A program made the translations under genes and the position numbers. Shown here piece after piece: positions 1,579 through 7,756 of a DNA stretch of 10,633 nt. The notes under the pieces are model-generated. The model saw nothing but the letters and a program-made list of their open reading frames with translations, did no database searches and had not been told where the DNA came from. The DNA comes from Christensenella sp. UBA5399. GTDB lineage: Bacteria; Bacillota; Clostridia; Christensenellales; Christensenellaceae. Numbering within the stretch: position 1 is the first letter of the stretch; each line of letters opens with the position of its first letter. The stretch is from the NCBI GenBank assembly GCA_002407725.1, contig DHOD01000010.1, positions 6,162 through 16,794 on the forward strand. The letters run 5' to 3'.

Positions 1579-1602
1579 AATAAAAACGTAGACGTTTTTA
1601 TT
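1579..1602. promoter_or_regulatory. Split operator-like palindrome upstream of the amidotransferase-like gene
   Basis: Two AATAAAAACGT arms face each other across AG. Each arm carries the AAAAACG half-site of the LacI-type sites at 577-590 and 1244-1257, but the two halves do not share the central CG as they do there. A possible TATAAA -10 lies just downstream on the minus strand (complement of 1564-1569), with no convincing -35. It may be an operator, simply hairpin H7 of the tiled block, or both. Confidence 0.4.
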
Positions 1603-1746
1603 CCGCGCCTTTAGCGCAGGGTTCATTACGCTTTTTGACGTAATGAACCGGATAAGCCGTGCAATGCTAAATCCTGCAAAACGACATATCGTTTTGCACC
1701 CGCATTTCATGCGGGAATAGAAAAGTAGTTTTTCTGCTTTTCTATT
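1579..1746 (-). other. Seven abutting hairpins filling the lacI to amidotransferase-like gap
   Basis: On the minus (mRNA) strand this 168-base block is covered end to end by stem-loops with no base between them. H1 1746-1716: 10-bp stem AATAGAAAAG/CTTTTCTATT, loop 11. H2 1715-1699: 7-bp stem CCCGCAT/ATGCGGG, loop 3. H3 1698-1675: 10-bp stem TGCAAAACGA/TCGTTTTGCA, loop 4. H4 1674-1650: imperfect, GGAT/ATCC plus AGC/GCT. H5 1649-1620: 11-bp stem GGTTCATTACG/CGTAATGAACC, loop 8. H6 1619-1603: 6-bp stem CTGCGC/GCGCGG with one G-U pair that forms only in minus-strand RNA, loop 5. H7 1602-1579: 11-bp stem AATAAAAACGT/ACGTTTTTATT, loop 2. H1 contains the lacI stop codon. The stems are unrelated in sequence, so this is not a repeat array. 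Function unknown; an mRNA-stabilising or processing structure is one possibility. Confidence 0.85.
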
Positions 1747-5638: not shown

Positions 5639-5653
5639 ACGAGGTTGAGGGAT

Positions 5654-7756
5654 TTGTATTCAAGGTTACTGAAATTAGTCACGGCAATAGAGAACAACAG
5701 TATCTTTTCCTCAATTAAAAAGGGATTTATTCTGATTATCCCTGTTCTTCTCATCGGTTCGCTTTCGCTGATGGTCCTGAACCTCCCGATTGATGGATAC
5801 CGCGCAGCACTGGAAGAGCTGGGCGGGGGCGTGCTGTTTACCATACTGATTTACCTGTACGATACCACATTTGGATTTCTTTCCGCATATATCGTGCTCA
5901 GCATCAGCTATTATTATTCCTTTACATTTGAATCACGCAATTACGCACTCCGAATCATGGCAATGCTTGCCTCGTTTGGGTGCTTTGTCGCGACATTTGG
6001 CGCGGCGACTGGCGAGATGGGTATTGGCGATTTTGGTCCCACCTCCGTTTTCACCGCCATTATATGCTCCATCGTGGGCACGCGGTTGTTTTTTGCCCTG
6101 TGCGAGTTGTTGCTAAAAAAATTCAATTTCAAGACGGTGGCTTCCGATGTGCATTACAAGAGTTCTATATCGGCCACCATCCCGCTGGCCCTTTGCATCG
6201 CCGCTTTCATTGGGCTGAACCTCCTCATCAAGGAGGTGTTTGGCGGCGAGAACCTAAACCAGCTGATTTCCAACGGCATCGCTTCGCTTTTTGTCAACAC
6301 AAACAGCGGACTGGCCAACGGTGTTTTGTATGTATTCATACTCAACCTGCTTTGGGTTTTTGGCATCCACGGCGGCAACGCGCTGGAGCAGGTTGCACGC
6401 GATGTGTTTGTGCCCGGCAACGAGGACCCCACGGTCATCGTATCCACAACGTTTATAGATAATTTTGCTGTAATCGGCGGATGCGGCGCAACTATCTGCC
6501 TGCTTTTTGCAATGTTCTTTTTTGCAAAAAGCAAGAGCAACCGGCAACTGGCGTATTCATCGGCTCCGACGGCCATATTCAATATCAATGAAATGTTGGT
6601 TTACGGTTTCCCGCTTGTGCTCAACCCCATTATGCTGATACCGTTCATCACTGTCCCCATTGTTTCGCTGCTGATCGCATACGCTGCAACGATTCTCGGC
6701 TTCATCCCCATCACGGTCGATACGGTCACATGGACCACGCCGCCGTTTTTCAGCGGCTACGCGGCAACCGGCACAGTCAACGGCATCATTGTCCAGGCCA
6801 TTATCATTGTGGTTGGCATGTTTATTTATACGCCCTTCCTGCGCCTGTCGGAACGGATGCAGCAAAGCCGTGAAAAACAGCTCCTCGAAAAAATGGAGGA
6901 AACCTATAAGGTCAGCCTGTCCACCGGCGACCACTACAACATCCTGGACAAGCAGGACGACGTGAGCGCCCTTGCCAAATCAATGCTGATGCAGCTTCGC
7001 ACAGACGTTGCGGGCTCCAAAATCAAACTATTTTACCAACCGCAGGTGGACGCCGACAAAGGCGTGATCGGCGCCGAAGCCCTGCTCCGGTGGAGCTATG
7101 CGGGCGAGCGGATTTTCCCGCCGCTTATCATCAAACTGGCGGTGGAAGACGGATTCTTCAACGAACTGACCCACTGCATACTGCGGCGCGCCTGCAAGGA
7201 CATCCAGGTGCTGCGGCAAAAGACCAAGCGCACGATCAAAATCTCCGTCAACATCACAGTCGACCAGCTCAACAACCCGGATTTTGTTGAAATGGTTGTG
7301 GATATGGTCAAAAAATATGGCGTGACGGGCAACCTTGTGCTGGAGGTCACAGAGGAAACCTCTATCATTTACTTCGACCATATATCGCAGAACATAGACC
7401 GGCTGCACGAGAACGGCATCGGTATTGCGGTGGATGACTTCAGCATGGGACAAACATCGCTTAAGTACCTGCAGAGCAACCATTTTGACCATGTCAAGCT
7501 GGACGGCTCGCTTGTGCGCCAAATCACCGAGAACCTGCGGAGCAGGGATATCATCCATTCCATCATCCGGCTGGGCAAACGGCTGGGGTTCGATATCATC
7601 GCGGAATATGTGGAAAATGAAGAAATCAAGGAAGCGCTGCTGGCGCTGGGGTGTAAGCTGTACCAAGGCTATCTTTACAGCCCCGCCGTTCCCGTTGAAG
7701 AGTATGCGCAATTCTACAAGGATTTCAACAGCAAATACATTCCCCCTGCAGAATAA
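5654..7756 (+). CDS. PTS EIIC (cellobiose-like) - EAL domain fusion, c-di-GMP phosphodiesterase
   Basis: This 700-aa membrane protein couples a PTS EIIC domain (about 15-400, many hydrophobic helices) to a C-terminal cytoplasmic EAL domain (about 445-690). EIIC signatures of the lactose/cellobiose family are visible: WVFGIHGGN (about 234-242) and FNINEMLVYGFPLVLNP (about 309-325). No EIIA or EIIB domain is present. The EAL domain should hydrolyse c-di-GMP to pGpG, and its key residues look intact: Glu475 of EAL, Asn533, Glu564, Asp594-Asp595, Lys615, Glu651 and Gln671 in YQGYLYSP. Loop 6 reads DDFSMGQTSL instead of the common DDFGTGYSSL. A charged, probably helical linker (about 400-425, SERMQQSREKQLLEKMEET) joins the halves. 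Only TTG codons are available as starts; 5654 has CGAGG 9 bases upstream, while 5645 directly abuts it. Sugar sensing through the EIIC half is inference. Confidence 0.92.
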   Translation: MYSRLLKLVTAIENNSIFSSIKKGFILIIPVLLIGSLSLMVLNLPIDGYRAALEELGGGVLFTILIYLYDTTFGFLSAYIVLSISYYYSFTFESRNYALRIMAMLASFGCFVATFGAATGEMGIGDFGPTSVFTAIICSIVGTRLFFALCELLLKKFNFKTVASDVHYKSSISATIPLALCIAAFIGLNLLIKEVFGGENLNQLISNGIASLFVNTNSGLANGVLYVFILNLLWVFGIHGGNALEQVARDVFVPGNEDPTVIVSTTFIDNFAVIGGCGATICLLFAMFFFAKSKSNRQLAYSSAPTAIFNINEMLVYGFPLVLNPIMLIPFITVPIVSLLIAYAATILGFIPITVDTVTWTTPPFFSGYAATGTVNGIIVQAIIIVVGMFIYTPFLRLSERMQQSREKQLLEKMEETYKVSLSTGDHYNILDKQDDVSALAKSMLMQLRTDVAGSKIKLFYQPQVDADKGVIGAEALLRWSYAGERIFPPLIIKLAVEDGFFNELTHCILRRACKDIQVLRQKTKRTIKISVNITVDQLNNPDFVEMVVDMVKKYGVTGNLVLEVTEETSIIYFDHISQNIDRLHENGIGIAVDDFSMGQTSLKYLQSNHFDHVKLDGSLVRQITENLRSRDIIHSIIRLGKRLGFDIIAEYVENEEIKEALLALGCKLYQGYLYSPAVPVEEYAQFYKDFNSKYIPPAE

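Follow-up and report, generated by a model that had tools for sequence, protein, structure and literature searches.

The stretch of DNA analyzed here (the window; 10,633 nucleotides of contig DHOD01000010.1 from Christensenella sp. UBA5399) carries on its minus strand a gene for a LacI-type regulator (1742 to 2755; Pfam LacI and Peripla_BP) and, downstream of it, a GATase1_like gene (PF07090; 762 to 1520), both assigned from the open reading frame list and Pfam with their starts assumed. Between them lies a row of hairpins that is one copy of a small, dispersed, apparently mobile DNA element and not a private RNA linked to lacI. The element, the 196-bp unit of a dispersed repeat, occupies 1565 to 1760 on the minus strand, with boundaries given by its terminal inverted repeats (TIRs) and a duplicated TNA triplet, and it matches other copies end to end. 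An earlier note, based on the letters of the window, had described seven abutting stem-loops at 1579 to 1746. The inverted repeats are present where they were placed; the block as then drawn is too short, as the real one includes both terminal arms.

The final codons of the LacI gene and its stop TAG (1742 to 1744) fall within the element. Joining the flanks by eye, we infer that the regulator would formerly have ended ...VDINK, where it now ends ...VDINNTNIQ with its stop inside the element.

Layout and fold of the window copy

Read along the minus strand, the element consists of a 5' arm, hairpins A, B, and C, a central junction, hairpins E, F, and G, and a 3' arm; the six hairpins correspond, in this order, to H7, H6, H5, H3, H2, and H1 of the earlier note, and the junction corresponds to H4. 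The 5' terminal arm TAATACTAATATCC (1747 to 1760) and the 3' terminal arm GGAGAATAGTATAA (1565 to 1578) are the TIRs, and each includes one copy of the target-site duplication TAA (1758 to 1760 and 1565 to 1567), assigned from the TNA duplication statistics over 79 elements given below. Hairpins A (1716 to 1746), C (1675 to 1698), E (1620 to 1649), and G (1579 to 1602) are long, and hairpins B (1699 to 1715) and F (1603 to 1619) are short and GC rich. Inverted repeats and covariation define all of them except F, which was placed from the minimum free energy (MFE) fold and covariation. The junction (1650 to 1674) holds mid arm 1, GGATTTAGCATT, the linker GCACGGC, and mid arm 2, TTATCC, and is supported by the covariation of two helices, P1 (5' arm with 1663 to 1674) and P2 (3' arm with 1650 to 1655). 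The mid arm of each half can thus pair with that half's terminal arm, and the two terminal arms can also pair with each other. Closing by P1 and P2 and the stem between the 5' and 3' arms are mutually exclusive alternatives.

Folding was compared with that of shuffled sequence, a check that the earlier note had proposed, and lay far beyond chance on both strands. The minus strand reached −84.6 kcal/mol, where shuffled sequences averaged −38.7 (z of −10.67; equaled by 0 of 200 shuffles), and the plus-strand fold gave a z of −11.82. In the MFE structure of the window copy, the 5' end is paired with the 3' end and H4 is weakly self-folded. A G-U pair available only to the minus-strand RNA, from which transcription on the lacI sense had been argued, does exist; it sits in H2 (1603 to 1619) and not, as had been stated, in H6 (1699 to 1715), which is a perfect 7-bp stem, CCCGCAT/ATGCGGG. 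This pair looks private to the window copy, because nine of ten aligned copies are Watson-Crick there.

As the earlier note had supposed, the block fits no named RNA family. At gathering scores, the window had no match to any Rfam covariance model, and eight loci searched at E ≤ 0.1 gave a sub-threshold match only (tmRNA, 13.6 bits versus 47). Between 1400 and 1900 of the window, a simple scan found no intrinsic terminator (GC stem followed by a U-run), and a promoter scan found one promoter-like site, approximately the number expected by chance.

Two mirror-image halves

Comparison of ten copies shows a plan of two mirror-image halves. In each half, a terminal arm and a mid arm enclose three palindromes that abut one another in the order long, short, long. 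Under this model, 94.9% of 692 cells were paired and 33 of 70 pairs had changed on both sides, which none of 500 shuffles reached; sliding the partners by 1 to 3 columns as a control left only 38 to 43% paired. Few one-sided intermediates stood beside the two-sided changes. The alternative pairing of the 5' arm with the 3' arm held in 94% of 100 cells, as expected of TIRs. Both halves follow this order, and many copies fit the model in reverse complement as well. What has been conserved is the fold, more so than the letters.

H4 had been taken for a decayed hairpin. Its self-pairing is poorly kept among the ten copies (70% of 70 cells, 55% in the outer helix, with 18 of 500 shuffles as high), while its left side pairs with the 5' end of the element in 93% and 90% of cells (two helices) and its right side pairs with the 3' end in 96%, with two-sided changes in each case. 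Since pairing with both element ends is kept and self-pairing is kept poorly, we read H4 as the putative junction of the two halves and not as a decayed hairpin; in the window copy it even folds on itself in the MFE structure, as a 4+3-bp hairpin with 7 of 7 pairs.

Copies in the same genome

The view that this was not a duplicated element is refuted by the copies found in the same genome. A DNA search gave 80 matches that merged to 40 places, and a second DNA query gave further matches. A covariance model, R1, made from an alignment of ten complete copies (A2), yielded 78 matches at E ≤ 1 (150 of 1,756 candidates scored), a number that includes some antisense or split hits. Eighty places were fetched and 71 were analyzed, the window copy among them. 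The repeat is short, noncoding, dispersed, and present in many copies, with a core unit of ∼196 bp. Several subfamilies vary in stem sequence under a constant plan, and shorter variants also exist. One of these, L057 (1495 to 1592), looks like a half element, a single three-hairpin domain bounded by TACTA ends of its own and flanked on either side by TAA; because it is bounded in this way, it hints that a half may be the ancestral unit. Other repeats with TACTA-type ends and a different hairpin plan occur in L130, L142, L146, L144, and L153 (for example, ACGGTGCTGAACGCACCGT in L142).

A blastn search of the window copy against recorded plasmids and phages gave no match. A 16-mer viral scan gave 117 stretches, which are taken as chance because none of the 80 loci read with the covariance model matched it.

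Some copies carry inserts. A second repeat of ∼45 nucleotides (CACCCCAGGG...TTCACCTTG), itself hairpin forming, lies at A-rich points of the hairpin loops, and by pattern it occupies nine distinct sites in several subfamilies, six in loop E (L031 at about 1646 to 1690, L035, L044, L049, L058, and L061) and three in loop A (L050, L060, and L120). The same pattern had two other, chance-like matches in the 0.57 Mb scanned, sequence that overlaps and is biased towards the element. In L034, L035, L036, and L050, hairpin B is broken in its 5' arm by an insert of ∼90 nucleotides (CGCAGT...GTGACC). Another of ∼50 nucleotides (GGTGAGACTCGAAATC...GCAAAGCT) lies at the base of hairpin G in L033, L034, and L054, and a similar stretch is inverted in L142.

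Relatives in other genomes

At E ≤ 1e-4, the scan of the order matched four of 396 genomes, namely the own genome, G001 (a sister species in the same genus), G057 (another family), and, weakly, G089; the element went undetected in the other 392. The scan of the class matched one of 391 genomes, the own one, and that of the phylum matched two of 398, the own one and G1123 (another class). Relatives were surely missed in these large scans, since six candidates were scored per genome under strict filters. An exact 3'-end pattern located five stretches in GTDB contigs, two in Christensenellaceae bacterium OttesenSCG-928-K19, two in a red-deer Oscillospiraceae metagenome-assembled genome, and one in Ruminococcaceae RUG12702. 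Full scans of 150 candidates each, antisense duplicates included, gave 58 matches in G1123, 32 in G1151, 32 in G1152, and 7 in G001 at E ≤ 0.01; G057 had 20 matches at E ≤ 1.

Between genomes the stems largely differ (G1151 and G1152 share some), and the plan stays. Apart from the 5' end of the G057 copies, the TACTA/TAGTA ends are kept across relatives; several of them also keep the linker ACGGC, which is not kept in G1123 or in one G1151 subfamily. In 109 aligned matches from other genomes, antisense rows included, 92.1% of 6,132 cells pair versus 55.2% after shuffling, with 2,198 two-sided changed cells versus 651, in an alignment that was fitted to the structure and hence leans towards it. 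The same abutting layout with covariation, which the earlier note had proposed to seek elsewhere, is therefore found both in the own copies and in other genomes.

Ends and insertion sites

The element begins with TACTA and ends with TAGTA, alongside a 3-bp TNA duplication. The end triplets, of the TNA type, are identical in 56 of 79 elements, and identical triplets other than TAA were observed 9 times against 1.4 expected, which 0 of 20,000 shuffles reached. In 0.50 Mb of G001, all three checkable orthologous junctions lack the element, with the flanking genes side by side at 52 to 86% protein identity. The stop and start at the L121 junction are 17 nucleotides apart with no element between them, the two matches at the L122 junction are 11 bases apart, also with no element, and the 0.2-kb spacer of the L049 junction has no model match. 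The L052 pair, with genes 2.2 kb apart, was left out, and G001 pairs at 27 to 44% identity (e.g., L053, L063, and L127) were not counted as orthologous. The exact duplication is unreadable at these empty sites because the flanks have diverged.

Insertion specific to stop codons was rejected, as the 12 of 30 insertions at stop codons fit the 12.7 that would fall there if TNA sites were chosen uniformly; four of the 30 were not at TNA. Eight of 30 reconstructed junctions measure 16 nucleotides or less and are operon-like. A replication-strand rule was also set aside, with 12 copies leading and 17 lagging as read from third-position skews, a weak count from 20 contig pieces mostly chosen for discordance.

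Orientation relative to genes

With gene calls from a simple script, copies between co-directional genes of the own genome lie in sense 37 times and in antisense 7 times (one-sided P of 2.6e-6). A further eight lie between divergent genes, five lie between convergent genes, and 14 are without a called neighbor. Other genomes gave 26 sense versus 11 antisense copies (11/2 in G1123, 6/1 in G1151, 5/0 in G001, 2/3 in G1152, and 2/5 in G057). Alignment to siblings indicated that the model had oriented three G1123 copies wrongly; two of these count, which brings G1123 to 9/4 and the total to 24 versus 13 (P of 0.05). The same check in the own genome would flip one copy (L144), giving 38 versus 6. 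We take the bias as a mark of selection on transcription effects, strong in this genome and weak in the others, and as no proof of an RNA function.

Maintenance at the DNA or RNA level

Selection on the folding of the sense RNA should leave more G-U pairs than A-C mismatches. The own copies have 87 A-C, 68 G-U, and 2,318 Watson-Crick combinations among 2,579 cells (filtered rows), and the hairpins of 63 rows from other genomes have 71 G-U, 57 A-C, and 2,562 Watson-Crick. As a control, eight tRNAs from the fetched loci had 7 G-U, 1 A-C, and 88 Watson-Crick in their acceptor and T stems. The mean MFE of 35 own copies was −73.7 for sense and −76.0 for antisense, and that of 24 copies elsewhere was −87.6 and −87.5, respectively. 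An RNA chain on the lacI sense, as the earlier note had first suggested, is not borne out, given that A-C is at least as frequent as G-U in the own copies, that the sense RNA is no more stable, and that the simple scan showed no terminator. Its second suggestion, a DNA element produced by repeated palindrome formation, fits. Taken together, the observation made in that note is partly confirmed and its interpretation partly supported.

Where two hairpins share the same inner arm, their loops were reverse-complementary in 7 of 187 comparisons, complementary only in one, and reversed only in none. Template switching has been argued to generate hairpins, to maintain them, and to invert their loops (PMC8794818).

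Search for an enzyme

The own genome has a single Y1_Tnp match (L354, 1315 to 1932), IS200-like by our reading, with no element within its locus, and a system of repetitive extragenic palindromes (REP) with a REP-associated tyrosine transposase (RAYT) was rejected for this genome on that ground. No match to DDE_Tnp_1 (PF01609) or DUF4096 (PF13340) was found there, and an IS4/IS5-type DDE enzyme was rejected in turn. Elsewhere, DDE_Tnp_1 matched once in G1152, twice in G001, and twice in G057, with no element found in those loci, and DUF4096 matched once in G057. In 0.80 Mb of overlapping fetched loci, stretches of 0.5 to 4 kb bounded by matching ends amounted to three pairs (a gapped copy, two neighboring copies, and two copies around ordinary genes) and included no autonomous transposon. 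An autonomous element in C36 of G1152 was rejected, as the locus has two separate copies around ordinary genes.

Apart from the element, the window encodes at 5645 to 7756 one protein that fuses a phosphotransferase system EIIC domain (PF02378) to an EAL domain (PF00563).

Discussion

Imperfect TIRs, a target duplication, orthologous sites without the insert, and a short, noncoding unit dispersed in many copies, all of them seen here, are features by which miniature inverted-repeat transposable elements (MITEs) are recognized. We consider it probable that the element is a MITE-like, nonautonomous DNA transposable element with its palindromes maintained at the DNA level, and write "MITE-like" rather than MITE because no enzyme was found. 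That it is a mobile dispersed element is highly probable. A DDE-type cut with a 3-bp stagger is the somewhat favored mode of insertion, and the balance also leans, to a similar degree, to DNA-level rather than RNA-level maintenance; that the fold is needed for transposition is a tentative proposal that could well be wrong.

Acting in trans, an enzyme that reads the TACTA ends would copy or move the element to TNA sites. Copies that landed within genes would be lost, and survivors would be intergenic, in many cases placed precisely at TAA stop codons. Changes in one arm would be copied into the partner arm, most simply by template switching on hairpins in single-stranded DNA, such as may arise during replication or transposition, and selection for transposition-competent folded ends would keep the plan. 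Operon transcripts would read through the element, and its sense orientation would be better tolerated than antisense.

Several observations weigh against this reading. No transposase bearing the ends of the element was found in the fetched loci or in the PF01609 and PF01797 neighborhoods, other families not having been searched genome-wide. The end triplets are unequal in 23 of 79 elements. The MFE structure of the window copy favors the 5'-3' stem and a self-paired H4 over P1 and P2. The control set of tRNAs is small. Outside the own genome, the closing arms hold more G-U than A-C (72 versus 43), though these arms are also bound as inverted repeats. The loop inversions are few, and four of the seven involve mirror-symmetric loops. 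Finally, the sense bias of the own-genome copies suggests some effect at the level of transcription or RNA.

This bias, together with its counterpart elsewhere before and after re-orientation, is also what speaks for the strongest competitor, a cis-acting RNA (an intercistronic stabilizer, an insulator, or a processing site) that transposition would have spread and that would persist through the folding of its transcript. The operon-like short junctions, the stable fold, and the G-U excess in the closing arms of other genomes point the same way, and ERIC and bcr elements are, in the excerpts consulted, transcribed and in some cases tied to mRNA decay (PMC2229807 and PMC3446304). We nevertheless regard such an RNA as unlikely, considering that G-U does not exceed A-C in the own copies and barely does so in the hairpins elsewhere, that sense RNA is no more stable than antisense, that the terminator and promoter scans gave nothing beyond chance, and that the element is undetected in nearly all scanned genomes of its order.

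Somewhat less likely still is a mutational by-product, in which template switching perfects the palindromes of any dispersed repeat and the fold is unselected. The published case for template switching as a maker and keeper of hairpins (PMC8794818, in part) would accommodate the scarcity of one-sided intermediates, the similar G-U and A-C counts in the own copies, and the loop inversions between copies. The long-short-long plan of both halves and the P1/P2 pairing recur across classes, however, and this weakens the proposal because mutation alone would hardly preserve such a plan.

Least likely of all is mobilization as single-stranded DNA by an HUH/Y1 transposase, as for REP with RAYT or IS200/IS605 ends: the extreme hairpin content and loops that seem accessible to a secondary insert would suit it, but the sole Y1 match of the own genome has no element nearby, no clear strand preference is seen in the discordance-chosen pieces, and the element shows a 3-bp target duplication, which is not expected of Y1 enzymes.

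Beyond the MITE-like element that we favor stands a bolder reading, possible but doubtful, in which a class of elements is defined by its DNA fold and not by its sequence. Two mirror-image three-hairpin domains would form in single-stranded or cruciform DNA, an enzyme that recognizes shape would cut at TNA, and the stems would be rewritten by template switching. If this is true, distant genomes carry the same shape in largely unrelated letters.

Comparison with known systems draws on excerpts of the cited sources. Bacterial MITEs (Correia/NEMIS, ERIC, YPAL, and RUP) are likewise 100 to 200 bp long, with TIRs and a target duplication, dispersed mostly between genes and stably folded if transcribed (PMC2229807, PMC10969869, and PMC3049150). 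Unlike them, the present element has its six palindromes, separate but abutting, arranged as two mirror halves that covariation shows to be conserved across classes, while the sequence is largely free. The Caulobacter CIR repeats share a proposed fold with two arms and a linker (PMC2229807), but there the arms form a pair of long inverted repeats carrying a GANTC motif, whereas each half here consists of three hairpins that the arms can close. BOX of Streptococcus pneumoniae is also structured, with TIRs and a target-site duplication; it is variable in length through the number of boxB modules and enriched between convergent genes (PMC3049150), in contrast with the fixed plan and the co-directional neighbors in 44 of the 57 places where both neighbors are called. 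Among bcr1 to bcr18 of the Bacillus cereus group, several are MITE-like or conserved in fold, often in untranslated regions or operon junctions, and the two-half plan is absent from the portion of the description compared (PMC3446304). REP/REPIN sequences with RAYT are palindromic DNA repeats mobilized in trans as well; the present element differs in lacking a RAYT beside its own-genome copies and in its 3-bp duplication, its 196-bp size, and its TIRs. No account of the element was recognized in the literature consulted, which is no proof of absence and did not extend to a comparison with the Clostridium stem-loop repeat families (PMC2267715).

Covariation is usually taken as a strong sign of a functional RNA. 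Here it is strong in mobile DNA that has neither a G-U preference in its hairpins nor an advantage of the sense strand, and screens for structured RNAs may mistake such elements for new RNAs. With many copies per genome to compare, the element offers a natural test case for the maintenance of palindromes at the DNA level and for transposition through folded ends.
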